From Herbidospora galbida (GTDB taxonomy: Bacteria; Actinomycetota; Actinomycetes; Streptosporangiales; Streptosporangiaceae), in NCBI RefSeq assembly GCF_005233835.1, contig NZ_SZQA01000019.1, forward strand, positions 62,001-126,000: a stretch of 64,000 nt of DNA, in the 5' to 3' direction. The notes under the pieces are model-generated. The model saw nothing but the letters and a program-made list of their open reading frames with translations, was not told the DNA's origin and searched no databases. Positions 26,536-44,740 of this stretch are shown in pieces. Every line of letters begins with the position of its first letter. The first letter of the stretch is position 1. Both the position numbers and the translations under genes were made by a program.

Positions 26536-29500
26536 TCAGGCGACGGTCACGGGATGGACCACGACAGAGGTCCGTCCGTCGGTGCCCGTCACGGTCAGGG
26601 TGATGTTGTAGGTGCCCGGAGCGGCGAACGTGTGGGACGCCGTCTGGCCGGTGCTGGGCGCACCGCCGTCGCCGTAGCTCCACGTGTAGCTCGCGATCGC
26701 CGTCGACCCGGCCGTCGACGCCGAGGCGTCGACGTCGCAGGTCAGGCCGGCGCAGGTCGGGGTGAACGCGGCCGTCGGGGCGGCGGCCAGGTTGCTCGCG
26801 GCGAGGTCGTCGACCGTCAGGGTGATCGGGGCGTTCGTCGCGGTGCCCGACAGGTAGGCGCCGATGCCCACGCCGCCCGCGACCTGCATGTTCGCGGTGG
26901 CGTCGGTGGTGGTCGCCTGCCAGGCGGCCGGCTCGGTCGCGGCGGCGTTCCAGACCTTGCCGGAGATCGTCGTCGGGTTCGTGCCGGTGACCAGCACCCG
27001 CATGTTGAGCACCAGGCCCGGCGTGTAGGTCAGGCCGGGGATGGTGGTCTCGGTGGTGATCAGGGTGTCGCTGCTGGCCCCGGTGGTGCGGATCAGCGCC
27101 AGGCCGACGCCCGACGGGAGCAGCCGGGCCCGGACCTTGTACTCGCCGACGCCCGCGACGCGGCGGCCGGTGGCGAACAGGTAGGTGCCGTTGCCGGTGC
27201 CCACCTTGTCGGACGCGATCGAGAACGACAGGTCGGAGGTGGTGCTGGACACCCCGTCGAGGTAGGCGCGCGGGTTGGCCGTCGTCGCCGGGAGGGCGAG
27301 CTTGGCCGCGTTGCCGTCGACGGAGAAGTTGCCGGCGCCGCCGACGAGCGTCCAGGGGCCGCCGGTCTGGGCGGTGCCCAGCGAGCCGTTGAGGGTCCGG
27401 CCGAACGTGTCGTTCGCGATGATCGACGGGGGGTTCGGGGCCGGGCGGGGCACGACCACGTCGCCGCTGGTGGCGGTGGCGTCGTCGTTGTCGGTGACCG
27501 TCAGGGTGACCGGGTAGTCACCGGCGGCCGGGTAGGTGTGGCTCGGCGTGGCGCCGGTGCCGGTCTGGCCGTCGCCGAAGTCCCAGGCGTACCCGTCGAC
27601 CGAGCCGTCGGCGTCGGCGGACGCCGAGGCGTCGAACGAGCACTCCAGGTCGGTGCAGGTCGAGGTGAACGACGCCGTCGGCGGCTGGTTGGCCGGGCCG
27701 GTGCCGCTGCCCTCCTGGTAGTGCTGGGCGACCTCGGCCGGGGTCAGCACCTTGGCGTAGATCGCGCCCTCGTCGAGGAACCCGTTGAAGTTGTCGGAGC
27801 TCGGGCGGTTGGGCCAGGAGTTCAGGGTGTCGCTGCCGAAGCGCCAGTAGCCCGAGTAGCTCTCGGCGCCGGTCTGCGCGTGGGTGCCCACGAGCGCGCC
27901 GTCGACGTAGAGCTTCATGCCGTCGGCGCCCTGCGTCGCCACGAGGTGGTGCCACTGGTTGTTGTTGTAGGCGGCCGTCGTGGTGATCAGGTTGAAGGCG
28001 CCGGTGTACGTGCCGAAGACCAGGCGGCCGTCGTTGCGCATGTAGACGTGGCGGTCGTAGTTGGAGCTGGTGCCGCTCGCGGCGTTGCCGAAGCCGACGA
28101 TCTTGCCGCCCTGGTTCGACGAGGTGCGGAACCAGGTCTCGGCCGAGTAGGTCGTCGGGTTGCTCGTCGCGTTGCCCGAGACGGCCCGGCCGCCGCTCTG
28201 CACCCGGACCGCGTTGTTGGCCAGGCCGACGATCGCGCCGGACTGGTTGTAGGTCACGCCGGTGTTGCTGAACGTGCCGTTGACGCCGCTGGTGCTGGCG
28301 TCGATCGCCGCCGGGCCGTTGGCCTCGTTGAACCGGAAGTAGGTCACCGGCTCGTCGTCGTAGACCACGCGGCCGTAGTCGTCGGCCGGACGCGGCGGGA
28401 TCGGGCTGGTGCGGCCCGAGGCGACGAAGTGGGCGTCGACCTTGGCCGGCGACAGGGCCGCCGGGTAGATCGCGACGTCGTCGATCTGGCCGTTCAGGTA
28501 GAGGCTGGTCGGGCGGTTCGGCCACCCGTTGAGGTTGTCGCCGCCGATCCGCCAGTAGCCGTTGTATCCCTGGGCCGTGGTGACCGAGGGGTCCTGGCCG
28601 ACGCGGCGGCCGTCGACGTACAGGGCGATGCCGCCGCTGCCCTGGGTGGCCACGATGTGGTGCCACTGGCCGTCGTTGAAGCCGGGGGCGCTGTTCACCG
28701 TGCGGACGGCGTTGGGGTAGACGCCGAAGTAGATGCGGCCGGCGTTGTCCATGTAGACGTGGCGGTCGTAGCTGCCCGACTCGCCGGTCGGCGCGTTGCC
28801 GTAGCCGACGATCTTGCCGCCCTGGTTCGACGTGGTCTTGACCCAGGCCTCGATCGAGAAGGCCGGGGTGGTGGGGACCGTGCTGTTGGTCTTCACCAGG
28901 CCGGTGCCGGTGCCGTTGAAGGCCGCCGCGGCGTCGGCGTCGCCGTTGATCGCGCCGGGGCTGGCCTGGGAGGTGCCCGCGTCACGGGTGGCGTCGGTGA
29001 AGGCGGCGTAGTCGAAGGCGGTCGTGCCGGAGGCCTCGCCGAGACGCCAGTAGGCGGCGGCTCCGTCGTCGATGACGGCTTCGGCGTAGTCGCTGAGCGC
29101 CCCCGCCGAGGAGATCGTCACCGGGTCGGAGGTGCCGCTGCCGACGGCGTTGCCCTGCGGGTCGACGGCGCGGACCCGGTAGGTGTGGACGGACCCGGGC
29201 GCGAGGCCCTCGTCGATGAAGCCGGCCGACGGGAGGGTCCAGAAGTTGGAGTCGACCTCGACCTCGCCGACGGGAGTGGTGCCGCCGTCGCGGAGGATCT
29301 GGTACTTCAGCTTCGCGTGGTCGCGGTCCCAGGTGGTCTTCCAGCTGAGCCGGGCGGTGCCCGCGTTGAGCGAGACCGCGGTCGGGGTCAGGTCGGCCGT
29401 CGGGATCGGCCCGGCGGTCTTCGGCGCGTTCGCCTTGACCGCGAACCGGGTGAGGCCCTGCTGCGCGCTGCCGTTGACGGTGGTGAACTCGCCGCCCATG

Positions 29501-30729
29501 ACCAGGTAGTTGCCGTTGCCCGACAGGGCCCAGCCGCCCTGGTTCATGCCGGTGTAAGAACCGGCGTTGACCTGCGGGAACCAGTGGAGCAGGGTCGGCG
29601 TGGGCTGACCGCTGTACTGGCTGTTGTTCGACGGCGGCATCGGGTCGGTGCCGGTCGGGACGAGCGTGGTGGCCAGGGCGCGCTGCCAGCGGGTCGGCGA
29701 GACCTCGGGGAAGCCGCGCAGCGACTCGCAGTCGTGGGCGTGGCCGACGCTGTAGAGCACCTGGTTGATCGGGAAGACGCTGTAGCTGGCGCCGTAGCAG
29801 TTGTCGAGCCAGATCAGGTCGCCCGTGTTGGGCTCGACCGCGAACCGGCCGTCGAACCAGTGCCAGCCCTCGCCGTCGGCGGCGGCGTAGATGTTGGTGC
29901 CGTCGGTGGTGAGGTCGTAGGTCATCGAGTAGTCGTTGCCGATCCGGGCCGGGATCGGGTTGCTGCTCCACGGGAGCGAGTCTCCCGTGGCCGGGTCGAG
30001 GGCGCCGATGCCGACCCGGGTGGCGTTGTTGAGCTGCTGGAACTTGCCGCCCACGATGACCCGGCTCTGGTCGGGCGACATGATCAGGGCGAAGACCTCG
30101 TCGTCGGTGTCGGGGGCCCACGGCTGGTTGGCGCCGTTGCTCCGGTTGACCGCGGCCAGGCGGTTGCGGCTCTGGCCGTTGACGTTGAAGAAGTTGCCGC
30201 CGATGTAGACGGTCGAGTTGGAGACCGTGATCGCGCGGACCACGTTGCCGACCGAGGGCGCCCACGATTCGAGGTTGCCCGTGGCGACGTCGAAGGCTGC
30301 GACCCGGTTGCGGGTCTGGCCGTTGACCTGGGTGAAGTCGCCGCCGATGTAGATCTTCGTCTGGTCGGGCGAGACGGCGATGGTGCGGGCCTGCGCGTTG
30401 AGCGTGGGCGCGAAGGAGGTGACGTTACCCGTGGTGATGTTGAAGGCCAGGATGTTCGACCGCACCACCTCGGCCGCGTTCCCCGGGGCGGTGCCCGGCG
30501 GGCGGGCGCGGGTGAAGCTGCCGACCGCGTAGACGGTGTTGCCGACGGTGGCCATCTTCCAGACCACGCCGTTGATCTGCCATGTGGGCAGGGCGTCGGC
30601 CGTGACGGTCTCGGGGACTCCCGGCGGCGGGTCGATGTCGGCCCGGGCGGGAAGGGGGATCGCCGCGAGCGACGCCCCCAGTAATGACGCGGCCAGGAAG
30701 GCGGCCACTCGCGATGATCGAATTACCAC
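26536..30729 (-). CDS. Giant secreted multidomain protein: propeller-like repeats, Fn3, two LamG, PKD, jelly roll, PKD
   Basis: A 1397-residue exported protein. A signal peptide (about 1-30, ending PLPARA) is followed by repeats of the form VYVGGxFTxVNGxxRxRLAAF/DxATGxxxxWAP (about 35-435), likely a beta-propeller. Next come an Fn3-like domain (about 445-540), two tandem LamG/concanavalin-like domains (about 545-775 and 785-1010, each with NQGGKIVG, YDRHVYM and NDGQWHHIVATQG-type strands), a PKD domain (SFDASASADADGSVDGYAWD), a jelly-roll-like segment and a final PKD domain. The LamG and PKD domains suggest glycan or surface binding. Its propeller is closely related to those at 32497 and 43064. 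No catalytic site is evident and no sortase signal is seen. Confidence 0.85.
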   Translation of the reverse strand: MVIRSSRVAAFLAASLLGASLAAIPLPARADIDPPPGVPETVTADALPTWQINGVVWKMATVGNTVYAVGSFTRARPPGTAPGNAAEVVRSNILAFNITTGNVTSFAPTLNAQARTIAVSPDQTKIYIGGDFTQVNGQTRNRVAAFDVATGNLESWAPSVGNVVRAITVSNSTVYIGGNFFNVNGQSRNRLAAVNRSNGANQPWAPDTDDEVFALIMSPDQSRVIVGGKFQQLNNATRVGIGALDPATGDSLPWSSNPIPARIGNDYSMTYDLTTDGTNIYAAADGEGWHWFDGRFAVEPNTGDLIWLDNCYGASYSVFPINQVLYSVGHAHDCESLRGFPEVSPTRWQRALATTLVPTGTDPMPPSNNSQYSGQPTPTLLHWFPQVNAGSYTGMNQGGWALSGNGNYLVMGGEFTTVNGSAQQGLTRFAVKANAPKTAGPIPTADLTPTAVSLNAGTARLSWKTTWDRDHAKLKYQILRDGGTTPVGEVEVDSNFWTLPSAGFIDEGLAPGSVHTYRVRAVDPQGNAVGSGTSDPVTISSAGALSDYAEAVIDDGAAAYWRLGEASGTTAFDYAAFTDATRDAGTSQASPGAINGDADAAAAFNGTGTGLVKTNSTVPTTPAFSIEAWVKTTSNQGGKIVGYGNAPTGESGSYDRHVYMDNAGRIYFGVYPNAVRTVNSAPGFNDGQWHHIVATQGSGGIALYVDGRRVGQDPSVTTAQGYNGYWRIGGDNLNGWPNRPTSLYLNGQIDDVAIYPAALSPAKVDAHFVASGRTSPIPPRPADDYGRVVYDDEPVTYFRFNEANGPAAIDASTSGVNGTFSNTGVTYNQSGAIVGLANNAVRVQSGGRAVSGNATSNPTTYSAETWFRTSSNQGGKIVGFGNAASGTSSNYDRHVYMRNDGRLVFGTYTGAFNLITTTAAYNNNQWHHLVATQGADGMKLYVDGALVGTHAQTGAESYSGYWRFGSDTLNSWPNRPSSDNFNGFLDEGAIYAKVLTPAEVAQHYQEGSGTGPANQPPTASFTSTCTDLECSFDASASADADGSVDGYAWDFGDGQTGTGATPSHTYPAAGDYPVTLTVTDNDDATATSGDVVVPRPAPNPPSIIANDTFGRTLNGSLGTAQTGGPWTLVGGAGNFSVDGNAAKLALPATTANPRAYLDGVSSTTSDLSFSIASDKVGTGNGTYLFATGRRVAGVGEYKVRARLLPSGVGLALIRTTGASSDTLITTETTIPGLTYTPGLVLNMRVLVTGTNPTTISGKVWNAAATEPAAWQATTTDATANMQVAGGVGIGAYLSGTATNAPITLTVDDLAASNLAAAPTAAFTPTCAGLTCDVDASASTAGSTAIASYTWSYGDGGAPSTGQTASHTFAAPGTYNITLTVTGTDGRTSVVVHPVTVA

Positions 30730-30826
30730 GGTTACCTACATCTCAGGAGATCGTTCTCACATCGATGCCAGAGTAATGGAACGGTTTAATCCAGCAAGGA
30801 GTAACCGATGGGACATGAAGTAACGA

Positions 30827-32500
30827 TTAAAGTTCACCTTCTGGAGCGCCGGTTTTAAGCACCGCTCCGGCTTCCAGACCGAACAAGTCGGCGACGTCGG
30901 ATGGCAACGGCGCTCCGTCGGGCAAATCGCCAATTTCCGGCTCGCTGCCATGGATTTCCTGACCGGTCATCCGGCGCAGATCGGCGAGCGTGGCCACGTC
31001 GGCGTCCGCTCGCGTCCAGTCGGCCCAGTCGGCGAGCGGCCCTGGTCCGCGCCGGTGGTAGACGTTGTGGTCGAGGCTGGCCATGTCGGCCGCGCCCTTG
31101 CGGCGGGTCAGATCGCGGACGGCCACGAGAGGTTCGGCGCCGGCCGAGGAAAGCACGTTGTTTCGCACCTCGACGCCACTCACATTCCAGGTCACTCCCG
31201 GCACGAGTTGCTGGCGCGCGCCGTCGATCGCATAGATCTGGCGGCCTTTGTTGTCGGTTACGGTGTTGTTCCAGACCCGTACATCGCTCGACTCGTTCAC
31301 ATAGACGCCGTGGGTGCCGTTGCCGGTCACCACGTTTCCGGCGATGAGCGCGCCGGCCGAGATCTCGAAATGGATGCCGTGGTGGGCGTTGTTCCGGGCC
31401 AGGTTGCGGGCGACCACGGCGCCGACGATCGATTCGTCGAGCCAGATGCCGGGGCCTCGGTTGTCTTCCATGAGGTTGCCGACGACCGTCATGCGCTTCG
31501 ACTCGGTGATCTTCAGGCCGCCGGAGACCGGGGCCATCATGAAACGCTCCACATTGTTGCCCCGGCTGACGTTGCCGATGATCGTGGCGTCGTCGGACTT
31601 GTGGCCGCCGATGCCCACCTGGCCGTTGCCCTCGAACAGGTTGTTCCTGACGGTGATCCGGGCGCCCTTCAGGGCCAGGCCGGTGACCGAGGTCTCGGCG
31701 AAGACGCTGTTCTCGATCGTCATGTCGTCGGCGAAGGCCTTCACGGCGGCGATCCTGGCCAGGGAGGTGGCGTAGCGGCGTACCCCCACGCCCTTGAGAG
31801 ACGACCCGTCGGCGCCCTCGAAGTAGAGGGCCTCGTCGAGGGTGGTGGCGCGGACGTCGCGGCCGGTGGGGTCGTCGCCGATGAACAGGCGGCCGGCCTG
31901 GTAGTCGACGAAGAAGGCGCCGGGGCCGACCTGATCGGCGGTCTGGACCTGGGTCAGCGGCCGGCCGTCGACGAAGACCTGGTCGGGCCAGTTGGCCATC
32001 GGGTGGGCGGGGTCGACCATGTGCCAGTCTTCACCGCCGCCCGCGGTGAAGTCGGTGTTGTCGAAGCGCACGTCCCAGTCGTCGCGGCGCCAGCGCGATC
32101 CGTCGCGGACCCAGTCGCCGACCGGTTCGCTGCCGTCGAACCAGACGACCTCGCCGGGGTGGTTCTGGATGGCCAGGCGCTTGCGGAAGATCTCGACCTT
32201 CTCGTGGTAGACGCCCTCGCGCAGGACGATCGTCGCGCCCTCGGGGGCGGTCTTCACCGCGTGGCCGAGGGTCCGCCAGGGTTTCGCGCCGTCGCCCGGC
32301 GCGTCGTCGTCGCCGTCGGTGGCGACGAAGAAGGCGCCCTCGGGGACGGGATAGTCGGCGGTGCCCAGCGGGGCCGGCCCGGCCGTCTGCCACGACGGCT
32401 GGGCCGGTCGGCCGGGGTCGGGCCGCATCAGCGCGGCCCAGATCAGGACGCCCGCCACCGCGAGGGCGACGGCCCCCGCGGCGGCGAGCCTCCGTCTCAC
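30827..32500 (-). CDS. Exported right-handed beta-helix protein
   Basis: A 557-residue protein. An N-terminal hydrophobic segment (about 6-26) gives a signal anchor or signal peptide. It is followed by FFVATDGDDDAPGDGAKPWR and VLREGVYHEKVEIFRKRLAI, the entry pattern of pectate-lyase-like beta-helix proteins. Asn-rich coils then follow (NNLFEGNGQVGIGGH, NLMEDNRGPGIWLDES, NTVTDNKGRQIYAI). Such folds usually cleave or bind acidic polysaccharides. The GTG at 32500 overlaps the stop of the upstream propeller gene (GTGA), so the two are co-translated. A paralogue lies at 59192-61609. Confidence 0.82.
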   Translation of the reverse strand: MRRRLAAAGAVALAVAGVLIWAALMRPDPGRPAQPSWQTAGPAPLGTADYPVPEGAFFVATDGDDDAPGDGAKPWRTLGHAVKTAPEGATIVLREGVYHEKVEIFRKRLAIQNHPGEVVWFDGSEPVGDWVRDGSRWRRDDWDVRFDNTDFTAGGGEDWHMVDPAHPMANWPDQVFVDGRPLTQVQTADQVGPGAFFVDYQAGRLFIGDDPTGRDVRATTLDEALYFEGADGSSLKGVGVRRYATSLARIAAVKAFADDMTIENSVFAETSVTGLALKGARITVRNNLFEGNGQVGIGGHKSDDATIIGNVSRGNNVERFMMAPVSGGLKITESKRMTVVGNLMEDNRGPGIWLDESIVGAVVARNLARNNAHHGIHFEISAGALIAGNVVTGNGTHGVYVNESSDVRVWNNTVTDNKGRQIYAIDGARQQLVPGVTWNVSGVEVRNNVLSSAGAEPLVAVRDLTRRKGAADMASLDHNVYHRRGPGPLADWADWTRADADVATLADLRRMTGQEIHGSEPEIGDLPDGAPLPSDVADLFGLEAGAVLKTGAPEGEL

Positions 32501-34128
32501 AGAACCGTCACCGACGCGCTGGTCGGGCTGGAGACGCGGTTGTTGTACGGGTCGATCGCGCGCACCCGGTAGGTGTGCGACGCGCCGGGCGTGAGCCCGG
32601 TGTCCTGGCACGACAGGTTCGGCAGGTTCCAGAACACCGAGAACGCCTCGGCGGTGCAGGCGACCTGGCCGTCGTTGCGCAGCACCTCGTAACGGACCTT
32701 GCGGTTGTCGAGGTCCCACGTGGCGCCCCAGCGGACGGTCACCTTGCCGCCGCCGTTGGCCTGCAGGGTCGGCGCGCCGAACCCGGCCTGGATCGGGCCG
32801 CCGACGTCGGGGCGGGTCTCGTGGAAGGTCCAGCGGGTGAGGCCCTGCTGCGCCACGTCGTTGACCTCGGTGAAGTCACCGCCGGCCCACAGGTAGGTGC
32901 CGTCGTTGGCCATCGCCCACGGGCCCTGGACCCACGGGTAGGTGGTGCCGGGGGCCGAGTTGGGGAACCAGTGGAGGATCGTCTGCTTGGCGCCCTGGGC
33001 CGTGCCGGCCGGCTCGGCGAGGTAGCGGCGGTGGGGCTTGGTCTCGGGGAAGCCGTCGCCGCCGTAGTAGGACTGCATGCTGCAGCGGTGGGCGTGGCTG
33101 CCGCTGTAGAGCACGCCGCCCATCACCGAGATCGCCTGGGTCGCGCCGAGACAGTTGTTGATCCAGATGCGCGAGCCGTTGTCGGGGTTGAAGGCCAGGC
33201 GGCCGTCGAAGGTGCCCTCGCCGTTGGCGCTGGCGTACATGCGGGTGCCGTCGGAGACGATGTCGGTCACCCACGAGCGGCTGGTGGAGCTGTTGGCCGG
33301 GATGTCGTTGCTGTTGAACGTGCCCTTGGAGCCGTCGCTCACGTTGACGGCCGACAGGCCGTGCTGCCGTACGCCGTTGATGCGGTCGAAGTCGCCGCCG
33401 ACGATGAGCCGGTTGCCTGCCGGGGTCAGCGCCATCGCGTTGACGCGCTTGTCGGCGGTCGGGGCCCACGAGGTGAGGGCGGCGGTGGCGGCGTCGAAGG
33501 CGGCCAGGCGGGTGCGGGTCTCGCCGCTCACGGTGGTGAAGTGGCCGCCCGCGTAGACGGTGGTGTCGGACACGGCGATGGCGCGCACCCGGTTGTTGAA
33601 CACCGGCTTGAAGTCGGGGTCGAGGGCGCCGGTCGCGGTGTCGAAGGCCGCCATGCGGTCGCGCCGCGAGCTGTCGATCTTGTTGAAGTCGCCGGCGACG
33701 TAGATCTTCGAGCCGTCGGGCGAGGCCTTGATCTCCCACACCGCGTCACAGCGGTAGGTGTCGGTGGCGATCTTGTCGCACTCGTTCTGCGCCTGGTCGT
33801 CGGTGAACGTCGGCGAGAAGGCCACCGGGTTCCACGGCAGCAGGTCGCCGGTGGCGGTGTCGAACGCGGCCAATCCGACCCGCGGCACCTCACCCGCGCC
33901 CCCCTTGGGGACGCCCGGCGGCCGGACGTTGTCGAAGTTGCCGCCCACGTAGGTCACCCCGTTGACGATCTCGATCGTCAGCACCACTCCGTCGGTCTGC
34001 CAGGTGGGCAGCGCGTCGGCCGTGACTGTGGCGACTTCCCCGGCGGCGGGGGCCGTGTCGGCCAGCGCCGCGGGGACGGGCGTCACCGCTAACGCGGCGA
34101 TCAGGCCCGATATCAGGGTCTTGCGCAT
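32497..34128 (-). CDS. Secreted propeller-like repeat protein with Fn3-like tail
   Basis: A 543-residue protein starting MRKTLISGLIAALAVTPVPA, a clear signal peptide. VTADALPTWQTDGVVLTIEI and TYVGGNFDNVRPPGVPKGGA closely match the start of the 1397-residue protein. Repeats such as IYVAGDFNKIDSSRRDRMAA and VYAGGHFTTVSGETRTRLAA follow, ending with an Fn3-like region (VTVRWGATWDLDNRKVRYEV). A pair of cysteines in the tail may form a disulfide. ATG 34128 is preferred over an upstream in-frame start because it has GGGGACC upstream and begins the signal peptide. It is coupled to the beta-helix gene. Confidence 0.83.
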   Translation of the reverse strand: MRKTLISGLIAALAVTPVPAALADTAPAAGEVATVTADALPTWQTDGVVLTIEIVNGVTYVGGNFDNVRPPGVPKGGAGEVPRVGLAAFDTATGDLLPWNPVAFSPTFTDDQAQNECDKIATDTYRCDAVWEIKASPDGSKIYVAGDFNKIDSSRRDRMAAFDTATGALDPDFKPVFNNRVRAIAVSDTTVYAGGHFTTVSGETRTRLAAFDAATAALTSWAPTADKRVNAMALTPAGNRLIVGGDFDRINGVRQHGLSAVNVSDGSKGTFNSNDIPANSSTSRSWVTDIVSDGTRMYASANGEGTFDGRLAFNPDNGSRIWINNCLGATQAISVMGGVLYSGSHAHRCSMQSYYGGDGFPETKPHRRYLAEPAGTAQGAKQTILHWFPNSAPGTTYPWVQGPWAMANDGTYLWAGGDFTEVNDVAQQGLTRWTFHETRPDVGGPIQAGFGAPTLQANGGGKVTVRWGATWDLDNRKVRYEVLRNDGQVACTAEAFSVFWNLPNLSCQDTGLTPGASHTYRVRAIDPYNNRVSSPTSASVTVL

Positions 34129-34138
34129 TTGGTCCCCT

Positions 34139-35413: not shown

Positions 35414-35510
35414 GCCGGTCCCCCCGAATCGCCGCTCCGCTTGGTGACGTGTGCCAGCATACGAGCGGTTAATAACTTTTCACTATGGACCGGTTGAGAG
35501 GACGAGTCAG

Positions 35511-36407
35511 ATGAAGCTCCCTGAACCCGTGATGAACGCGGGCCGGACCGCCATCCGGGGCTGGGGCATGGCGACGGCGGCGTTCCGGCCCGACCCCGAC
35601 TTCCTGCTCATCGGGGCCAAGCGCGGCGGGTCGACGTCGTTCTACTTCGCCCTGCTGGAGCATCCGAGGGTGATCCCGCTGTTCCCGGCGGCCGGGCTGC
35701 TGCCCAAGGCCAACCACACGAAGGGCGTCCACTACTTCGACTCGAACTACGCGCGCGGGATGCGGTGGTACCGCTCGCACCTGCCGAGCCGGTCGAGCCG
35801 AGCGCGGGCCGGGCGCAGGGCGGGCGGCCCGGTGGTCGCCGGAGAGGGCTCGCCCTACTACCTCCACCATCCCCTGGCCGCCGAACGCGCCGCCGGGAAC
35901 GTGCCAAAGGCGCGCATCCTGCTGGTGTTACGCGACCCGGTGGAGCGCACGTTCTCCCACTACCGCGAGCGGGTGCGCGCGGGCGCGGAGACCCTGACGT
36001 TCGAGGAGGCCCTGGCCGCCGAGGAGTCCCGGACCTCCGGTGAGGAGGCGAAGATCATCGCCGATCCGGCGTACCTGTCCTACGCCCACGAACAGCAGTC
36101 GTACGTCGCCCAGAGCGAGTACGCCCGCTGTCTGGAACGGTGGTTCGCCCACTACCCGCGCGACCGGTTCCACATCCTGACCAGCGAGGACTTCTACCGC
36201 GACCCGCAGGCCGCCTGCGACCGGGCGGCGGAGTTCCTCGGGCTGCCGCCCGCGCCCCTGCCCGCGGCGGGCAAGGTCTGGAACGCCGCCGCCCCGGGCG
36301 ACATCCCCGACGACGTACGCAAGAGACTGGCCCGCCACTTCGCCCCGCACAACCGGCGGCTGGAGGAGATGCTCGGCCGCAGGCTCAGCGACTGGACGGC
36401 CGGCTGA
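35511..36407 (+). CDS. Sulfotransferase (PAPS-dependent)
   Basis: A 298-residue cytoplasmic enzyme. The 5'-phosphosulfate loop is LLIGAKRGGSTSFYFALLEH and the 3'-phosphate site is VLRDPVERTFSHYRER. The remainder follows the heparan-sulfate-like sulfotransferase fold. The ATG at 35511 is chosen; an in-frame start at 35451 adds unconvincing residues. Located between the polymerase and the glycosyltransferases, it probably sulfates a sugar of the glycan made by this locus. Confidence 0.85.
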   Translation: MKLPEPVMNAGRTAIRGWGMATAAFRPDPDFLLIGAKRGGSTSFYFALLEHPRVIPLFPAAGLLPKANHTKGVHYFDSNYARGMRWYRSHLPSRSSRARAGRRAGGPVVAGEGSPYYLHHPLAAERAAGNVPKARILLVLRDPVERTFSHYRERVRAGAETLTFEEALAAEESRTSGEEAKIIADPAYLSYAHEQQSYVAQSEYARCLERWFAHYPRDRFHILTSEDFYRDPQAACDRAAEFLGLPPAPLPAAGKVWNAAAPGDIPDDVRKRLARHFAPHNRRLEEMLGRRLSDWTAG

Positions 36408-37242
36408 GCACCTCCAGCGCCGCGAGCATGCCGCCGTTGAGCGGCAGGTCGTCGTGGCGCTTGGAGATGACGGCCTCCCAGTGGGCGGCCGCCTCGGCGT
36501 AGCCCGTGGGCACCGGGTCGACCCCGAACAGGGTCGTCTCGGCGGCCCGGTAGTAGACCTCGTCGGCGCCGGGAGGCGCCCACGCGGCGTCCTCCCAGTC
36601 GATCAGCCACGGCACCCTGCCCCGGGTGCGGCGCAGGTTCCACGGAGTGAGGTCGCCGTGCATCGGCAGCCAGTGGCCGGGGGTGCCGGCCGGTTTGGGC
36701 AGCCCGGCGAGCAGGCGCTGGATGCGGCCGGTCAGGTCGACGACGTCGATCTTCCGGACCGGCCGGGCCGGGACCGGCTCCATCGCCGAGATGAGCAGCC
36801 ACGAGGGGCCCTCGCCCAAGACGACCGGCACCCGGAAGCCGTCGCCGCCGTCGAGCAGCCGCAGCACCTGGGCCTCGCGGTCGAGCCCCTCGCGCACCTT
36901 CAGGAACCCGACGGGCCGGCCCTTCTGGATGAGCAGCGCCGCGGCGCCCGGCCGGGACGCCTGCGGGCGCAGGTAGAGGGCGACCTCGTCGACCGGGCCG
37001 ACGACCTCGGAGACCTCGGCGAGGATCTGCTCCCAGCGCTCGACCGGAGGCGCCCAGCGTTCACGCCGGCCCGGCAGCAGCCACGGCCCGGCGACCAGCA
37101 CCGCCCGGTGCAAAATCCGCTGGGCCAGCAGCGGGAGGGGCTTGGAGAAGGTCAGCAGTGACAGCCCGGCGGCGGCCGACCGGGCGTCGCCGACCGGGAT
37201 CCAGACGTTGGCCCGGCCCGGCGGGTAGCGCACGAAACTCAT
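36385..37242 (-). CDS. Aminoglycoside phosphotransferase-fold kinase
   Basis: A 285-residue protein. The catalytic loop MHGDLTPWNLRRTRGRVPWL and metal site LIDWEDAAWAPPGADEVYY are those of APH/choline-kinase-fold enzymes. The N-terminal lobe is short and atypical. ATG 37242 overlaps the stop of the upstream glycosyltransferase (ATGA), so the pair is co-translated. It may phosphorylate a sugar or lipid precursor of the glycan rather than an antibiotic. The 3' end overlaps the convergent sulfotransferase by 23 bases. Confidence 0.75.
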   Translation of the reverse strand: MSFVRYPPGRANVWIPVGDARSAAAGLSLLTFSKPLPLLAQRILHRAVLVAGPWLLPGRRERWAPPVERWEQILAEVSEVVGPVDEVALYLRPQASRPGAAALLIQKGRPVGFLKVREGLDREAQVLRLLDGGDGFRVPVVLGEGPSWLLISAMEPVPARPVRKIDVVDLTGRIQRLLAGLPKPAGTPGHWLPMHGDLTPWNLRRTRGRVPWLIDWEDAAWAPPGADEVYYRAAETTLFGVDPVPTGYAEAAAHWEAVISKRHDDLPLNGGMLAALEVLSRPSSR

Positions 37243-38330
37243 CCGCGCAGGTCCAGGCAGAGTCTCTCGTAGCGGGCGGCGACGTCGTCCCACGTGTAGT
37301 GGACGCGGGCGCGCTCGCGGGCCAGGTCGCCACGGCGGCGGCAGGCGGCGGGGTCGTCTTCGGCCTGTTCGATCACGGTCGCGAGGTCTTCGGGGCCGGC
37401 GAAGAACGCGCCCGACTCGGCGAGGACCTCCCGGTTGAACACCACGTCGTAGGCGATCGTCGGGGCGCCCGCCCCCATGGCCCGCAGCAGCGACGGGTTG
37501 GTGCCGCCGACGGAGTGGCCGTGCAGGTAGGTGGCCGACCCGGCGTAGAGGGCGTCGAGCAGGTCCTGGTTCCAGACGGCGCCGACCAGCTTCACGCGCT
37601 CGTCCTTGGCGGCCAGGTCGTTGATCTTTTTCACGTACTCCTCGGCGTAGGGCGCCGAGCCCACGACCACCAGCGGCAGCCGGGCGGCGCTGCGCGAGTA
37701 GCCCTCGACGATCAGGTCGACGTGGTTCTCCGGCTCGAACCGGGCGACCACCAGGTGGTAGCCGCCGGGCTCATAGCCCTCGGCTCTGAGCAGGTCGTCG
37801 TCGCAGCGCTCCTGGACGGGAGCGCCGTAGGGGATCATGACGCTGCCGGCGGCGTAGGTCTCGCGGTAGTAGTCCTGGATCGCGACGGCGTCGGCGATGA
37901 TCTGCTTCGACCAGCGGACCGACAGCTTCTCGACCGCCAGGTAGTAGCGCTGCCCTGCACCGTTCCATTTGGCCCGCTTCCACTCCAGCCCGTCGACGTG
38001 GGTGGCCACCGGGATGCGCGCCAGCTTGAGGAACGGGAGTAAGGGCGCGTTGGCCGCGTTGAACACCAGCGCGACGTCGGTGCGATGCAGCAGCACATGG
38101 CCGACCGACAGCGCGGTGTGGCTGAGCGTCTCCATGATCTTGTGCTGCACGGCCGGCAGGTGGACGAGCGTCATCCCCTTGTACGCCGGGAGCTTCTCCA
38201 CCGCCCCCCGGCAGTAGACCCGGACGTCGTGCCCGGCGTCGGCCAGGCGAGCCCCGATCTCCTCGACGGCGGTCTCGAAGCCCCCGTAACGGGCCGGCAC
38301 CCCGCGAGTCCCGATCATGGCGATCCGCAT
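37239..38330 (-). CDS. GT4 glycosyltransferase, DUF1972/rhamnosyltransferase type
   Basis: A 363-residue GT-B enzyme. It starts MRIAMIGTRGVPARYGGFET, the hallmark of the DUF1972 N-terminal domain found in rhamnosyltransferases such as those of capsule loci. The C-terminal donor domain has LVVARFEPENHVDLIVEGY and GGTNPSLLRAMGAGAPTIAYD. dTDP-rhamnose made by the rml genes in this locus is a likely donor. Divergent from the next GT4 gene. Confidence 0.88.
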   Translation of the reverse strand: MRIAMIGTRGVPARYGGFETAVEEIGARLADAGHDVRVYCRGAVEKLPAYKGMTLVHLPAVQHKIMETLSHTALSVGHVLLHRTDVALVFNAANAPLLPFLKLARIPVATHVDGLEWKRAKWNGAGQRYYLAVEKLSVRWSKQIIADAVAIQDYYRETYAAGSVMIPYGAPVQERCDDDLLRAEGYEPGGYHLVVARFEPENHVDLIVEGYSRSAARLPLVVVGSAPYAEEYVKKINDLAAKDERVKLVGAVWNQDLLDALYAGSATYLHGHSVGGTNPSLLRAMGAGAPTIAYDVVFNREVLAESGAFFAGPEDLATVIEQAEDDPAACRRRGDLARERARVHYTWDDVAARYERLCLDLRG

Positions 38331-38402
38331 GCGTTTCCTTCGATGGATGACAAGATGAACATCCAACCGTAAACGGTAATCAAACATTTGGATGCGGCAA
38401 CG

Positions 38403-39521
38403 ATGGTTCGAGTGGTGATGGCCCACCCGTCGCCCGATCTGTACGGCTCCGACCGCATGCTCGTCGAATCGGTACGGGCCCTGGCCGAAAAGGCCGAAAT
38501 CACCGTCACACTGCCCACCGACGGCCCTTTGTCCGATTTGATTCGCGCGGCCGGGGCCGAGGTGGAGATCCTGCCCGTGCCGGTGCTCCGCAAGGCCTAT
38601 CTGAAGCCTGCCGGCCTCGTGAAGCTGACCTGGACGCTGGCCACCACACTCCCCCGCATGGTGTCCTACCTGCGGCGCGAACGTCCTGCCGTGCTGTACG
38701 TCAACACGGTCACCATCCCCTGGTGGCTGCTGGCCGGGCGGCTCGCGCGGGTGCCGAAGGTGGTGTGTCACGTCCACGAGGCGGAAGACGGCGTTCCCGG
38801 TCCGATCAGGCGGGCGCTGGCCCTGCCGCTGCGGCTGGCGCACACGATCATCGCGATCAGCCGGAGCGTGCGCGACCGAATCGTGGCCGACGGAGGCCCT
38901 GACGGCAAAACGACCGTCATCCACAACGGCGTCGCCGGTCCCCCGCCCACCGACCCCCGCCCGGAGCACGAGGGGCACCTTGTCCTGGTCGGCCGCCTGT
39001 CTCCCCGCAAGGGCAACGACGTCGCCGTCGAGGCGGCGAAACTCCTGGTCAGCAGGGGTCACACGATCAAGCTGACGCTGGCGGGCACCATCTTCCCCGG
39101 CTACGAGTGGTACGAGGCCGAACTCCGCGCGAAAGCCGCGGAGCTCGGGCCCGAGGTGGTCTTCGCCGGGTTCACCGACCCGGTGTGGCCACTTCTGGCC
39201 ACGGCCGACGTCGTGCTGGTCCCCTCGCGGGTCGAGCCCTTCGGCCTGGTCGCCGTCGAGGGCATGCTGGCCCGTCGTCCGGTGGTCGCCAGCGAGGTGC
39301 AGGGGTTGGCGGAAATCGTCAACGACGGGAAGAACGGCCTGCTCGTGGCGCCGGGCGACCCGGTCGCGCTCGCCGACGCCGTCGAAACCTTGCTTAACGA
39401 CTGGACCGCCGCGACAGCCCTCGCGAACAGGGGTTTCGACGATGCGACGTCCCGGTTCGGCCTAATGCGTTACACGACGGCGATGGAGCGGGCGATTCTC
39501 GGGCCGGACGCTGATGTCTAA
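38403..39521 (+). CDS. GT4 glycosyltransferase
   Basis: A 372-residue GT-B enzyme. Residues MVRVVMAHPSPDLYGSDRML form the acceptor domain start. VLVGRLSPRKGNDVAVEAA and the EX7E-like stretch PSRVEPFGLVAVEGMLARRP are the donor-site signatures. ATG 38403 is taken; a TTG at 38388 is possible and neither has a clear ribosome binding site. It probably adds one sugar of the repeat unit. Confidence 0.88.
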   Translation: MVRVVMAHPSPDLYGSDRMLVESVRALAEKAEITVTLPTDGPLSDLIRAAGAEVEILPVPVLRKAYLKPAGLVKLTWTLATTLPRMVSYLRRERPAVLYVNTVTIPWWLLAGRLARVPKVVCHVHEAEDGVPGPIRRALALPLRLAHTIIAISRSVRDRIVADGGPDGKTTVIHNGVAGPPPTDPRPEHEGHLVLVGRLSPRKGNDVAVEAAKLLVSRGHTIKLTLAGTIFPGYEWYEAELRAKAAELGPEVVFAGFTDPVWPLLATADVVLVPSRVEPFGLVAVEGMLARRPVVASEVQGLAEIVNDGKNGLLVAPGDPVALADAVETLLNDWTAATALANRGFDDATSRFGLMRYTTAMERAILGPDADV

Positions 39522-39597
39522 ACTGTGAATCGACCCTGTCTTTACGGCAGATTCGCAGCGCGAAGAGGAATTGCACAAGCGGGGAGAACAGGCATTC

Positions 39598-40785
39598 GTG
39601 GCCACAGACCAACGTGACGAGACCCCCGAGGTCGGTCTTCTTGAGGCCGTGTGGCGCTATCGGTGGTCGTCGCTCGCACTGATCCTCGTCGCCGCGGTCG
39701 CCGCGGGGGCGGCGACCTTCTTCGTCTTCGGCAACGTCGAGGCGACCGCCCGGTTCGCGGTCGTCGACCCGCGCAGCACCACCTACCTGCGCATGGGCGT
39801 GTCCTCCGACAGCAGCTACATCGCCTACACCGCCCAGCGGGCCGCGTTCGCGCAGTCGGCGGGCGTGCTCGACCGGGCCCGGCAGCTTCTCGAGAACGAG
39901 CAGAAGGTCGTCGTCGACCTCGAGACCCTCCGGCAGAGCGTCACCTCCTCGCCCGGCACGGCCGGCGGCATCGTCGTGGTCACCGCGACGGCCAAGACCG
40001 ACAAACTGGCCGCGCAGATGGCCAACTCGGTCGTGGCGGCCTACCAGATCCTCACCGAGGCCGACGCGCAGCGCGAGCAGGAGAAGCTGCTCAAGAGCGT
40101 GCGGTCCACCCGCACCCGCGTACAGGACGACCTGAAGCGGGCCCCCGACGGCAGTGCCACCGAGTCGTCGCTGACCGAGGCGCTGGTGCAGCTCCAGCTC
40201 AAGGAGTCGGAGGCGACGATCGACCTCGCCCAGTTCGGCGGCGGTGTCCGGTTCGTCGACCAGGCCAACCCGCTGAAGATCACCCCGAGCAAGGTGCCGA
40301 CCAACATCGCGATCGGCCTCGCGGTCGGCACGCTGCTGGCCATCGTCCTCGCGTTCCTGCGCGCCACCAACCCGATCGGCACGATCCGCGAGGTGACCAC
40401 CCCGACCGGCCAGCGCCACAAGCCCGCCCAGCCCCGGCGCCCGCTGCTGCCCCGGCCCGAGGTCAACGGCACGGCGCCGGCCAGGGCCGAATACGACGAC
40501 CGCCCGACGGCCGCCTTCGAACGCATCAGCCTGCCCGCCCGGCCACCGGAGCCCGCGGCCGCCGCGATCGAGAAACCCGCATCCGAGAAATCCGCACCTG
40601 GGAAGCCCGGGCCGGAAAGGACGACGCCTCCGCCGCCGATCCGGAGCTGGCCCGAACCGCCGCCGGCCAAGACGCCCGCCAAGACGCCCGCCAAGACGCC
40701 CGCGGCGAAGAAACCGGCCGCCGAGGAACCCCCGGGTGACGACTCCGAGCCCGTGGTGACCATCGACACCGGCGCCACCTCCTGA
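39598..40785 (+). CDS. Wzz-like polysaccharide chain-length/co-polymerase protein
   Basis: A 395-residue protein. Two membrane segments (about 24-44 and 235-255) flank an extracytoplasmic helical domain, the Wzz/PCP topology. The cytoplasmic C-terminus is long, Pro/Lys-rich and has three PAKT repeats encoded by 12-base units at 40666-40701. It lacks a tyrosine-kinase domain. GTG 39598 is chosen because GGGGAGAA lies about ten bases upstream. Stop and next start form TGATG, so it is coupled to the flippase. Confidence 0.82.
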   Translation: MATDQRDETPEVGLLEAVWRYRWSSLALILVAAVAAGAATFFVFGNVEATARFAVVDPRSTTYLRMGVSSDSSYIAYTAQRAAFAQSAGVLDRARQLLENEQKVVVDLETLRQSVTSSPGTAGGIVVVTATAKTDKLAAQMANSVVAAYQILTEADAQREQEKLLKSVRSTRTRVQDDLKRAPDGSATESSLTEALVQLQLKESEATIDLAQFGGGVRFVDQANPLKITPSKVPTNIAIGLAVGTLLAIVLAFLRATNPIGTIREVTTPTGQRHKPAQPRRPLLPRPEVNGTAPARAEYDDRPTAAFERISLPARPPEPAAAAIEKPASEKSAPGKPGPERTTPPPPIRSWPEPPPAKTPAKTPAKTPAAKKPAAEEPPGDDSEPVVTIDTGATS

Positions 40786-42053
40786 TGGCCGGTTCGCTGC
40801 GCAGGCTCGTCGCGCGGGCGGGCGGCTCCGTCACCTCCCAGGCCGTCACGGCGGGCGGGAGCGTCGTCTTACAGCTCATCGCGGTCCGGTTCCTCGGCCC
40901 CGAGGCGTTCGGCGCCTACGCGATCATGATGGCCGTGCTCGTCACGGTCACCACCGTCTTCTCCTCATGGGTGGGCGACTCGCTCACCGTGTTGGACCGT
41001 TTCAATCCGCGGGTGCGGGCCGCGCTGTGCGCCTCGATCCTCGGGCTGACCTCGGCCGGGACCGTCGTCGGCGTCGCGTTCGCGCTGGCGCTCCACCTGG
41101 CCGACGGGCCGGGTGTCGCCGCGTTCGCCCTGCTCACGGTGTTATGGCTGCCGCAGGAGAGCGCGCGGCGGCTGCTCAACGCGCGGCTGGAGTTCGGCCG
41201 CCTGGTGCTCAACGACCTCGTCTACGTCGGGGTGACGCTGGCGATCCTGGCCGGGCTCTGGCTGACCGGCACGCCGTTCACGCTGACGTGGATCCTGGGC
41301 GCGATGTGCGCCGGGCAGCTCGTGTCACTCGGGCTGACGCTGGCGCTGCTGCCGTCGGTGGAATACCGGCTGCCGCGTCCGAGCCTGGCCGGGCTCGGCG
41401 AGGTCACCACCTTCGCCGCGTGGCGATCGGCGCAGGCGTCACTGCGGCCGGTGGCGCTGCTGATCATGCGGGTGGCGATCGACACGTTCGCGTCGCGTAC
41501 GGTGCTGGCGGCCGTCGAGGCCGGGCGGCTGCTGATGTCGCCGGCGCTGACGGTCGTCCAGGGCGCGGGCTCCTATCTGCTGCCGACGTTCGTGCGGCGG
41601 CGTGACGCCGGGGTGCCGATCCGGCCCCGCAACGCGCTGACCGCCTCGCTGGTGCTCATCGCCGGCACGCTGGCCTGCGGGGTCGCGGCCATCGCGGTCC
41701 TCGGACACGTCGGGCCGCTCATCACCGGCGGCGCGTTCACCCTCGACGCGGTGACCGTGGGCGGCTGGGTGGCCTACACGGTCAGCTTCTCGGCGACGCT
41801 GCCGCTGGCGATGATGGCGGCCGCCTACACCCTGTCCCGCCTGGTGTTCATGGTCAGGGCGGCCGAGACCGCCATCGGCCTGACGGCCATGCTGGTCGTG
41901 CTCGCGGTCGCCCCCGACCTGGCCCACCTGGCCCCCTACTGCATCGGATTCGGCGGCCTGGCCTCGGGATTCCTCCTATGGTGGCACCTTCGCCGCAAGG
42001 CCCCCGTCCCGTCACGGAATGAGATCCCCCATGAGACGCACGCTGCTGAGTAG
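40785..42053 (+). CDS. Wzx-type polysaccharide flippase (MATE/MOP superfamily)
   Basis: A 422-residue integral membrane protein with about 12 helices. The N-terminus (VTSQAVTAGGSVVLQLIAVR and FLGPEAFGAYAIMMAVLVTV) is that of oligosaccharide flippases of the MOP superfamily. It should move lipid-linked repeat units across the membrane. It is translationally coupled to the Wzz-like gene and overlaps the next gene by 23 bases. Confidence 0.86.
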   Translation: MAGSLRRLVARAGGSVTSQAVTAGGSVVLQLIAVRFLGPEAFGAYAIMMAVLVTVTTVFSSWVGDSLTVLDRFNPRVRAALCASILGLTSAGTVVGVAFALALHLADGPGVAAFALLTVLWLPQESARRLLNARLEFGRLVLNDLVYVGVTLAILAGLWLTGTPFTLTWILGAMCAGQLVSLGLTLALLPSVEYRLPRPSLAGLGEVTTFAAWRSAQASLRPVALLIMRVAIDTFASRTVLAAVEAGRLLMSPALTVVQGAGSYLLPTFVRRRDAGVPIRPRNALTASLVLIAGTLACGVAAIAVLGHVGPLITGGAFTLDAVTVGGWVAYTVSFSATLPLAMMAAAYTLSRLVFMVRAAETAIGLTAMLVVLAVAPDLAHLAPYCIGFGGLASGFLLWWHLRRKAPVPSRNEIPHETHAAE

Positions 42054-43044
42054 CGCCGCCGTGGCGTTCGCCCTGACGGCGGCGGCGCCCGCGTACGCCG
42101 CGCCGGCCCCTCCGGCGCCGGTGAAGGCCACCTGGAAGCAGGATCGGGTCATCGACAACCCGAAGATCACCGAATCCAGCGGCCTGTACGCCTCCCCGCT
42201 CCACCCCGGCGTCGTCTGGACCCACAACGACGGCGCCGGACCGGCCACCCTCTACGCCATCGGCCCCGACGGCTCGACCCGGGCGACCGTCACCGTCGAG
42301 GGCGCGGCGGCCGTCGACACCGAGGCCGTGGGCGGCTACGTCGACCAGCGCGGCAACGCCCTCATCTACCTGGCCGACACCGGCGACAACGACAAGACCC
42401 GCCAGGCGGGGGTGACCCTGTTCGTCTTCCCCGAGCCGAAGGTCCTGGCCGACACGACGGTGACCGCCGAGCGCTATCCGATCATCTACCCCGACGGCCC
42501 GCAGGACTCCGAGGCCGTCCTGGTCAACCCGACCAACGGCAACCTCTACTTCGTCAGCAAAACCCCGACCGGCGGAGCCGTCTACGGCGCCCCCGCGTCG
42601 CTGGTACCGGGCGTGGCCAACCGGCTGGAGCGGCTGGTGGCGGTCCCCCACGTCATCTCCGACGGCCTGATCGGCTACGACGGCCGCATGTACCTGCGCG
42701 GCCTCAACAAGATCCGCGTCTTCTCAGACGTGACCGGCCACGTGGTGCAGACGATCGACGCGCCCAAGCAGCCGCAGGGCGAGTCGATGGCGCTCAGCGC
42801 CGACGGCACGACCCTGCTGGTCGGCAGCGAGGGCGAGAAGAGCGCGGTGTTCGCGTGGCAGCTGCCGAAGGATCTGGTCACCGGCCCGATCCGCAAACCG
42901 GGCCCGCAGCCCGACCCGAACGCGATCCAGCAGACCGCCAGGGCCAAGGAGCCGACGAAGCTGCCGCAGCTCATGCTGGGCGGGCTGACCGGAATCGCCG
43001 CGCTGATCGGGCTCGGCGCGCTCGTCCGTCGACTGAGGCGTTAA
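42031..43044 (+). CDS. Exported propeller-like protein with C-terminal membrane anchor
   Basis: A 337-residue protein. A signal peptide (MRRTLLSSAAVAFALTAAAP) is followed by a repeat-rich beta domain with ITESSGLYASPLHPGVVWTH, LIYLADTGDNDKTRQAGVTL and SEAVLVNPTNGNLYFVSK. The C-terminus has one hydrophobic helix (LPQLMLGGLTGIAALIGLGA) ending VRRLRR, so the body is outside and the tail inside. No enzyme motif recognised. Overlap with the flippase gene suggests a role in export or retention of the glycan. Confidence 0.72.
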   Translation: MRRTLLSSAAVAFALTAAAPAYAAPAPPAPVKATWKQDRVIDNPKITESSGLYASPLHPGVVWTHNDGAGPATLYAIGPDGSTRATVTVEGAAAVDTEAVGGYVDQRGNALIYLADTGDNDKTRQAGVTLFVFPEPKVLADTTVTAERYPIIYPDGPQDSEAVLVNPTNGNLYFVSKTPTGGAVYGAPASLVPGVANRLERLVAVPHVISDGLIGYDGRMYLRGLNKIRVFSDVTGHVVQTIDAPKQPQGESMALSADGTTLLVGSEGEKSAVFAWQLPKDLVTGPIRKPGPQPDPNAIQQTARAKEPTKLPQLMLGGLTGIAALIGLGALVRRLRR

Positions 43045-43063
43045 TCGGGTTCATACTCCGGCC

Positions 43064-44740
43064 ATGCGCACGCTTGTTCACGGCAGATTCCCGACGCGAG
43101 CCACGGCCGGCCTTCGGCCGTCCGCGTCTCGCTTGCTGGCCGTGTTATCGCTCTCGTTCCTGCTGACCGGGCTGCTCGCGGCCCCGGCGTGGGCGGCCGA
43201 CTACTCGGCCCAGCCGCGCGCCAACTGGCTGCCGAACGGCCGGGTCCTGGCCATCGCCCACACGGGCGACCGGGTGGTGATCGCGGGCGAGTTCACCACC
43301 CTGCGGCACTCCGCGACCGGCGAGACCGTCGGCCGCCAGCGCGTCGCCCTGCTCGACGCGGCCAGCGGCGACCTCATCCGCACGTGGTCGCCCGCGGTGA
43401 ACGGCGCGGTGCAGGTCCTCGCGGTCGGGAACGGCCGGGTGTACCTCGGCGGCGACTTCACCACGGTCGCCGGGCAGACCCGCACGCGGCTGGCGGCCGT
43501 CGACCTGGCCACCGGCAACGTCGTCGGCGGCTGGACGCCCGCCGCCAACAGCACGGTGCGCGGGCTGGCCGTGATCGGCGACACGCTCTACGCCGGAGGG
43601 GCGTTCACGCAGGTCGCCGGGCAGAACCGGACCCGGCTGGCGGCCGTCGACCTCGGCAGCGGCGCGCTGCGCGCCTGGAACCCGGGCGCCAACAACACGA
43701 TCATGGCCATGGCGGCCGCGCCCGACGGCGGCAGCGTGATCGTCGGCGGGCAGTTCCGCACCCTCGGCGGCGCGACGCGGCTGTTCCTCGGGTCGGTCGG
43801 GCTCAACGGCACGGTCACCGGCTGGGCTCCGCCCCCGAGTTGCGACCTGCCGAGCAACCAGTGCTGGGTGCTCGACCTGGCCGCCGACGCCGACAACGTC
43901 TACGCCGCCATCGCCGGAGTCGGCGGACGGCTGGCCGCATACCGCCTGAGCAACGGGTCGCGCCGCTGGGAGCGCACCGCCGACGGAGACGTGGAGTCGG
44001 TCGCGGTGCGCGGCTCCTACGTGTACGCCGCCGGCCACTTCTGCCCCGACTTCTCCGGGTTCCAGCGGTGTGACTTCGTGGCCGTCGACGCCGGGACCGG
44101 CGCGGTCGACACCGACTTCGCGCCGACGGCCAACGGGCAGGTGTTCGCGCTGCACGCCGGACCCGACGCGCTGCGCGCGGGCGGCGGCTACGGCCAGCTC
44201 AACGGGGTCTCCCGGCCCAACTACACGGAGTTCCCGCTGCTCCCGGCGTCGGGCGACGTGACGCTGGTACCGGCGGGCTCCTCGTGGCGCTACCTCGACG
44301 ACGGCAGCGACCAGGGCACGGCCTGGCGGGCGGCCGGGTTCGACGACTCCGGCTGGCCGCAGGGCGCCGCCCAGTTCGGCTTCGGCGACGGCGACGAGCG
44401 GCAGCAGGTCGCGCCGGGCCGGATCACCTACTACTTCCGCACGAGCTTCGGCGTCGCCGCCACGTTCGGCCAGGTCACCATGAGCGTGATCCGCGACGAC
44501 GGCGCGGTCGTCTACCTGAACGGGACCGAGATCTGGCGCGACAACCTGCCGACCGGCACGATCACCGCCGCCAGCCGGGCCGTGTCCACCATTTCGGGCG
44601 CGGCCGAGTCGCAGTGGACCGACGTGCCGCTGTCGCCCGGCCAGCTCCAGCAGGGCCAGAACACCATCACCGTCGAGATCCACCAGGATCGGCCCGACTC
44701 CAGCGACATCAGTTTCGACCTGCGCCTGCGGGCGCGCTGA
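43064..44740 (+). CDS. Secreted propeller-like repeat protein with C-terminal beta-sandwich
   Basis: A 558-residue protein with a long signal peptide ending PAWA. At least six repeats of the form VYLGGDFTTVAGQTRTRLAA / VDLATGNVVGGWTPAAN make the propeller (about 50-390). Residues of about 400-558 (WRYLDDGSDQGTAWRAAGFD, YYFRTSF, ITVEIHQ) resemble a galactose-binding-like sandwich. This is the third member of the family in the locus. CATACT ending six bases before the ATG hints at a leaderless start. Confidence 0.82.
   Translation: MRTLVHGRFPTRATAGLRPSASRLLAVLSLSFLLTGLLAAPAWAADYSAQPRANWLPNGRVLAIAHTGDRVVIAGEFTTLRHSATGETVGRQRVALLDAASGDLIRTWSPAVNGAVQVLAVGNGRVYLGGDFTTVAGQTRTRLAAVDLATGNVVGGWTPAANSTVRGLAVIGDTLYAGGAFTQVAGQNRTRLAAVDLGSGALRAWNPGANNTIMAMAAAPDGGSVIVGGQFRTLGGATRLFLGSVGLNGTVTGWAPPPSCDLPSNQCWVLDLAADADNVYAAIAGVGGRLAAYRLSNGSRRWERTADGDVESVAVRGSYVYAAGHFCPDFSGFQRCDFVAVDAGTGAVDTDFAPTANGQVFALHAGPDALRAGGGYGQLNGVSRPNYTEFPLLPASGDVTLVPAGSSWRYLDDGSDQGTAWRAAGFDDSGWPQGAAQFGFGDGDERQQVAPGRITYYFRTSFGVAATFGQVTMSVIRDDGAVVYLNGTEIWRDNLPTGTITAASRAVSTISGAAESQWTDVPLSPGQLQQGQNTITVEIHQDRPDSSDISFDLRLRAR

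Follow-up and report, generated by a model that had tools for sequence, protein, structure and literature searches.

The locus and its secreted proteins

A glycan locus of the soil actinobacterium Herbidospora galbida, lying within a 64 kilobase (kb) stretch of its genome (NZ_SZQA01000019.1, positions 62,001–126,000, forward strand; this whole stretch is called the window, and coordinates are window positions unless stated), encodes three secreted propeller-repeat proteins, named here the long, short and third propellers. The genetic link between the close subfamily of these propellers and glycan loci is strong. The Wzy_C, short propeller, beta-helix and long propeller genes are consecutive on the same strand, separated by a 10 bp gap, a 4-bp overlap and 97 bp, respectively. 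The secreted proteins (lengths in amino acids, aa) and the adjoining Wzy_C protein are as follows.

26536–30729 (−): long secreted propeller, 1397 aa (Rax2 34.7 bits; two Laminin_G_3, 153 bits; two PKD_4, 131 bits)
30827–32500 (−): putative GH120-like glycosidase with a right-handed beta-helix, secreted or membrane-anchored (Pfam Beta_helix, NosD, DUF1565)
32497–34128 (−): short secreted propeller-FN3 protein, 543 aa (DUF5122 35.6 bits, Rax2 31.1 bits, both above cut-off)
34139–35413 (−): Wzy_C O-antigen polymerase/ligase-type membrane protein (PF04932 55.1 bits, cut-off 31.7; 10–12 hydrophobic segments)
42019–43044 (+): fourth propeller-like secreted protein with a C-terminal membrane anchor (weak YncE seven-blade match; hydrophobic segment at 318)
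43064–44740 (+): third secreted propeller, 558 aa, with a C-terminal jelly-roll-like domain (DUF5122 27.3 bits)

A preliminary description of the window had counted three such proteins. All three open reading frames (ORFs) are real, with a coding-type third-position G+C of 0.96–0.98 and N-terminal signal-like segments, but the count was too low, as the GH120-like enzyme and the fourth propeller-like protein stand beside them. The latter is the locus copy (a paralog) of a protein that occurs in 200 of the 201 genomes of the order surveyed below and was for this reason rejected as a marker of the locus.

The three propellers

The repeat VYxGGxFTxVxGxxRxRLAA that the preliminary description saw as shared is confined to these three proteins among all six frames of the window. 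It occurs in two, one and two copies in the long, short and third propellers (two in each with a looser pattern) and has no match in 1000 residue shuffles of each protein. Near-identical openings had also been claimed; the long and short propellers do share TVTADALPTWQ, but the third has a distinct opening, YSAQPRANWLPNGRV, and is more distant from the other two, which are 45% identical over about 535 aa. The short propeller consists of a propeller and an FN3-like part and the third of a propeller and a jelly-roll-like C-terminus. The long propeller carries, in order, a signal, a propeller, an FN3-like domain, two LamG domains, a PKD domain, a jelly-roll-like region and a second PKD domain, the two LamG and two PKD domains already proposed being recovered by Pfam; the FN3-like and jelly-roll-like labels are readings of the sequence. 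The short and third propellers pass the cut-off of PF17164 (DUF5122; 27 bits), whereas the long one, at 18.9 bits, stays below it with this family alone; the long and short propellers pass that of PF12768 (Rax2; 28.8 bits), with which the third has no match. The start of the short propeller, an ATG at 34128, stands as first given, 10 bp past the Wzy_C stop.

An AlphaFold model of the short propeller, built on an alignment of 57 relatives, is all-beta with a mean pLDDT of 92.8, and its fold search returned WD40-type propellers only. Searches of solved-structure sequences with the single propellers gave no match, and a propeller profile matched, among PDB sequences, only a designed propeller and an FN3-like region. 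In the 57 relatives, Q44, R69, R205, C326, Y341, H345, C349 and W387 are invariant and H347 is kept in 98%. The His-Ala-His-x-Cys site (H345/H347/C349), together with C326 and W387, could be sugar-binding, metal-binding or catalytic.

If this site were catalytic, the propellers would themselves be hydrolases, lyases or esterases of the glycan, with the LamG and PKD domains serving for targeting. Propeller folds are frequent among glycosidases and lyases (e.g., GH43 and PL22); this background, the conservation of the residue set from Q44 to W387 and the enzyme-like beta-helix protein next door speak for such a role. However, the propellers have no catalytic family match in Pfam, NCBIfam or PDB sequences, the fold search yields nothing beyond WD40-type scaffolds, C326 and C349 may merely form a disulfide, and the third propeller has no His-Ala-His motif. 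We thus hold an enzymatic function of the propellers to be possible, if unlikely.

The putative beta-helix enzyme

The beta-helix gene sits between the short and long propeller genes. As read from the sequence, its GTG start and the short propeller's stop share 4 bp (GTGA), a sign of translational coupling between the two. A profile of the protein matches XylC, a GH120 beta-xylosidase (3VST), with an E-value of 2.8e-16, and in a Foldseek search 3VST ranks first (E 3.5e-19, TM score to the query 0.63), with 16% identity over the fold alignment. The catalytic residues of XylC are Asp382 and Glu405. The WLD and VE residues of 3VST align with D343 and E367 of the window protein (numbered, as are the residues below, on the 545-residue piece used in alignments), the stretch of 3VST that holds them being a weak second domain of 10.5 bits. 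In GH120, the Asp is the nucleophile and the Glu the acid/base (PMC6887791). Asp343 and Glu367, together with Glu306, Lys318, Trp341 and His362, are invariant in all 33 beta-helix relatives. The protein therefore appears to be GH120-like, with the catalytic pair kept, and is a putative glycosidase; it shares the beta-helix fold and the aligned Asp/Glu with XylC and differs from it by its low identity and by the position of its gene in a biosynthetic locus.

One of the 33 relatives is encoded in the window itself, about 9 kb beyond the locus (59192–61609, +). This 805-aa GH120-like protein keeps the E/K/W/D/H/E residues, has a Thr/Pro/Ser-rich linker and a C-terminal DUF5648, and is likely another secreted glycan enzyme.

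Association with glycan loci in the order and the phylum

Homologs of the short propeller were found in 36 of 201 sampled genomes of the order. Close homologs (at least 250 bits) amount to 46 genes in 24 genomes of seven genera; each of these genomes carries about two Wzy_C and about two Bac_transf genes. A Wzy_C gene lies within 10 kb of 43 of the 46 (about 0.5% expected by chance per gene) and a Bac_transf gene within 30 kb of 41 (about 1.8% expected). Under random placement, P is below 1e-60 when genes are counted and about 6e-13 when only the seven genera are; since neither the genes of one genome nor the genomes of one genus are independent of each other, the genus-level figure of 7/7 is the safer one. 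The weaker homologs follow the same trend, 19 of 22 being within 30 kb of Bac_transf; this set includes nine third-propeller orthologs, and of its remaining 13 members 10 have Bac_transf nearby. In a wider sample of the phylum, six of the seven genomes with matches above 200 bits have such a match no more than about 17 kb from Bac_transf, as read from coordinates, the seventh being a fragmented assembly.

The small stand-alone propellers of the same genomes (about 400–470 aa, DUF5122) have Bac_transf nearby in just 3 of 18 cases, and the one of the Herbidospora galbida genome adjoins menG/ubiE. The family members away from glycan loci are a different subfamily of small propellers. Weak DUF5122 matches alone were rejected as a tracer of glycan loci, which they track poorly.

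These small propellers are what favours an incidental proximity, in which abundant secreted repeat proteins would lie near a glycan locus by chance: they are mostly away from glycan genes, and the one beside menG/ubiE is a fourth family member in the same genome as the window. Against this, the co-location of 43/46 and 41/46 genes and a gene order conserved across genera and families make chance highly improbable as an explanation and, barring a strong sampling artefact, refute it for the close subfamily. The proposal of propellers dedicated to the glycan locus is well supported, and a distribution mostly away from such loci is found for the distant small propellers but not for the close subfamily.

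Glycan genes of the locus and their recurrence

The other genes of the locus and its edges are the following.

25888–26475 (−): RmlC dTDP-4-dehydrorhamnose 3,5-epimerase (Pfam PF00908 206 bits)
35451–36407 (+): sulfotransferase (Pfam PF00685 42.4 bits)
36385–37293 (−): APH-like kinase-fold protein (PF01636 39.7 bits), a neighbour kept in other loci
37239–38300 (−): GT4 glycosyltransferase, start approximate (Glyco_trans_1_4 / DUF1972 from about residue 256 of ORF 37239–39062)
38388–39521 (+): GT4 glycosyltransferase (Pfam Glyco_trans_1_4 119 bits)
39571–40785 (+): tentative Wzz-like chain-length protein (GNVR E 0.0065, Wzz E 0.21, below cut-off; two hydrophobic segments)
40785–42053 (+): polytopic membrane protein, presumed Wzx flippase (about 12 hydrophobic segments, position)
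44846–45811 (+): FkbM methyltransferase (Pfam PF05050 48 bits)
45808–46617 (−): RmlD, start approximate (Pfam RmlD_sub_bind 296 bits)
46617–47558 (−): RmlB-type dehydratase (Pfam GDP_Man_Dehyd/Epimerase)
47555–48688 (−): RmlA-type nucleotidyltransferase (Pfam NTP_transferase 196 bits)
48627–50096 (−): initiating phosphoglycosyl transferase (Bac_transf 228 bits; TIGR03025 415 bits, above cut-off)
50345–51358 (+): LytR-CpsA-Psr (LCP) protein, possible wall ligase (Pfam PF03816 157 bits)

The mixture of propeller and glycan genes first described is supported by Pfam for the Wzy_C polymerase and the GT4 glycosyltransferases but not for the flippase, whose candidate has no Pfam match and retains its hydrophobic segments and position as evidence. 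The locus is probably of the Wzx/Wzy type and, because of its enzyme families (Rml, sulfotransferase, FkbM), its product is probably an exopolysaccharide that contains rhamnose and carries sulfate and methyl groups. The rhamnose genes stand at opposite ends of the locus, rmlC being about 20 kb from rmlD, rmlB and rmlA (45808–48688, −).

Genes for the alpha and beta subunits of a 2-oxoacid:ferredoxin oxidoreductase (22961–25895, +) adjoin the locus, as they do in Herbidospora, Planobispora, Nonomuraea, Microbispora and Microtetraspora. A polysaccharide deacetylase domain protein (21313–22758, +) is encoded at the locus edge and also nearby in Planobispora, Nonomuraea and Microtetraspora.

When one genome from each of 84,980 species was scanned, 457 relatives emerged, and 71 loci were retained from these; Herbidospora supplies all of the best matches (92–97% identical). 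Within 10 kb, homologs of Wzy are found in at least 39 of the 71 loci, of Wzz in at least 40, of GT4 in at least 49, of the beta-helix protein in at least 43 and of the sulfotransferase in at least 27; these are lower bounds, as the gene caller uses third-position G+C and does badly where G+C is lower (Arthrobacter, some metagenome-assembled genomes). The fourth propeller-like protein has a locus copy in at least 37 of the 71. A cassette of Wzy, propellers, beta-helix, GT4 pair, Wzz, flippase-like and fourth propeller-like genes, often with the sulfotransferase and kinase-fold genes, recurs in Herbidospora, Sphaerisporangium, Microbispora, Sphaerimonospora, Microtetraspora and Actinomadura, the propellers being divergent from Wzy in the last genus. 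Planobispora and Nonomuraea have it without the beta-helix gene at this spot. Orthologs of the third propeller are near glycan genes in Herbidospora, Planobispora, Nonomuraea and one further genus.

The suggested check, whether the family tracks Wzx/Wzy loci, thus comes out positive in the order, and the link also reaches Streptomyces, Kribbella, Nocardioides and Micrococcaceae. Streptomyces loci have a short-type propeller beside RmlB and GT4 genes. In Kribbella, four propeller genes form a tandem array next to Wzy_C, Wzz, WecG and Bac_transf, and the counterpart of the Wzz-like protein passes the cut-off, unlike the window copy. Propeller-LamG-PKD proteins occur together with beta-helix proteins in Nocardioides and in a Micrococcaceae metagenome-assembled genome; these two and Kribbella all unite propeller-LamG proteins, with or without PKD, with a beta-helix protein and glycan genes. 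One Nocardioides locus also has, between two propeller genes, a gene for a calcineurin-like phosphoesterase with a PKD domain (L132:13430–15337).

The conserved pairing of the short propeller with Wzy_C, whose stop it follows so closely, bears on another explanation, in which the propellers are acceptors of the glycan: the neighbouring Wzy_C protein would act (also) as O-glycan ligase, and the outcome would be a surface layer resembling proteoglycan. The Wzy_C family spans polymerases and ligases, and the window protein weakly matches PEP_O_lig_1 and the oligosaccharyltransferase TfpM. Both NCBIfam matches are, however, far below cut-off (37 vs 188 and 27 vs 600 bits, respectively). The locus yielded a single Wzy_C gene, together with a Wzz-like gene, so that a polymerase is the simpler assignment; the propellers are divergent from Wzy_C in Actinomadura, and the nearby LCP protein could attach the glycan to the wall instead. 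A role as acceptors is therefore decidedly improbable. A more specific version, in which a Wzy_C ligase would link a sulfated Wzx/Wzy polymer to propeller and LamG/PKD core proteins, or build it up on them, and the GH120-like enzyme of the same operon would mature it, is a shade more doubtful again.

Proposed role of the secreted proteins

The explanation that we favour, with a probability of roughly 0.6, is a dedicated extracellular module in which the propellers and the LamG/PKD domains would bind or organise the exported glycan and the beta-helix enzyme would trim it. Binding is suggested by the LamG/PKD/FN3/propeller architecture. That the propellers bind or organise the glycan is plausible given the lectin-like fold of LamG, the lack of an enzyme family match and the WD40-type fold, and the LamG domains are a suggestive sign of polysaccharide binding. 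In broad terms, the propellers very probably act on the polymer or keep it together. Taken as a whole, the process could be viewed as follows: a rhamnose-containing heteropolysaccharide would be made by the Wzx/Wzy route, and alongside it the cell would secrete a set of helper proteins specific to this polymer. Once outside the cell, the polymer would be bound by the propeller-FN3 proteins and by the long LamG/PKD protein and kept at the surface as a matrix, and the beta-helix enzyme would trim or remodel the polymer.

Several points weigh against this module. The flippase and Wzz assignments, drawn mostly from topology and position, are weak. The beta-helix gene is absent at this spot in Planobispora and Nonomuraea, and the enzyme is therefore not an obligate partner. 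The fold search gives generic WD40-type propellers and no carbohydrate-binding ones, and the H345/H347/C349/C326/W387 cluster resembles a functional site that could be catalytic. Finally, a few short propellers are away from glycan genes, some of them beside an RHS-type protein. In four Actinomadura loci (L076–L079), which have no window-type glycan genes within 10 kb, the short propeller stands beside a divergent gene for a secreted protein of about 2200 aa. The two such proteins that were scanned are both RHS-repeat proteins, one with a Pretoxin-HINT domain, and the short propeller possibly has a separate role in these loci. The coordinates of these genes within their loci are as follows.

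L076: 2662–9471, gene for the ~2200-aa protein
L077: 2952–9650, gene for the ~2200-aa protein
L078: 3001–9726, gene for the ~2200-aa protein
L079: 2633–9472, gene for the ~2200-aa protein

Relation to known systems and significance

The window proteins share repeat and fold with the DUF5122/Rax2 propellers (PF17164, PF12768). Their subfamily is set apart from DUF5122, which has no assigned function, by the TADxLPTWQxNGVVW opening, the FN3-like domain, the invariant HAHxC and the occurrence in Wzx/Wzy loci.

A close known parallel to the locus itself is wps-1 of Actinoplanes missouriensis, which likewise has Wzy, Wzz-like, flippase-like, sulfotransferase, kinase-fold and methyltransferase genes and is required for normal sporangium formation; a Wzx/Wzy cluster with sulfotransferases thus shapes actinomycete sporangia (PMC13390465). 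In contrast to the window, no propeller, LamG or beta-helix proteins appear in the published descriptions of wps-1, wps-2, wps-3 and imp: the text of PMC13390465 has no mention of propeller, LamG, Laminin, PKD or helix, and none of the genes listed for wps-1 to wps-3 and gsf is a propeller, LamG, PKD or beta-helix entry. GimA and GimB of the A. missouriensis sporangium matrix are secreted glycosidases, as the beta-helix protein is predicted to be; both degrade the matrix, and gimB adjoins the imp matrix polysaccharide cluster (PMC12691653). No propellers are reported in that system, unlike in the window, and the text of PMC12691653 does not mention propeller, beta-helix or LamG.

Actinomycete Wzx/Wzy loci with sulfotransferases and a hydrolase beside a matrix cluster are known, whereas no description of the propeller/LamG/beta-helix module was found in the open-access literature, which leaves out most subscription papers. 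To our knowledge, exopolysaccharide-specific matrix proteins are known in few bacteria only. The propellers provide a defined family of candidate matrix proteins in filamentous actinobacteria whose genetic link to a polymer is clear. This family offers a conserved putative site and a predicted processing enzyme, and it ties in with the work on sporangia (PMC13390465).

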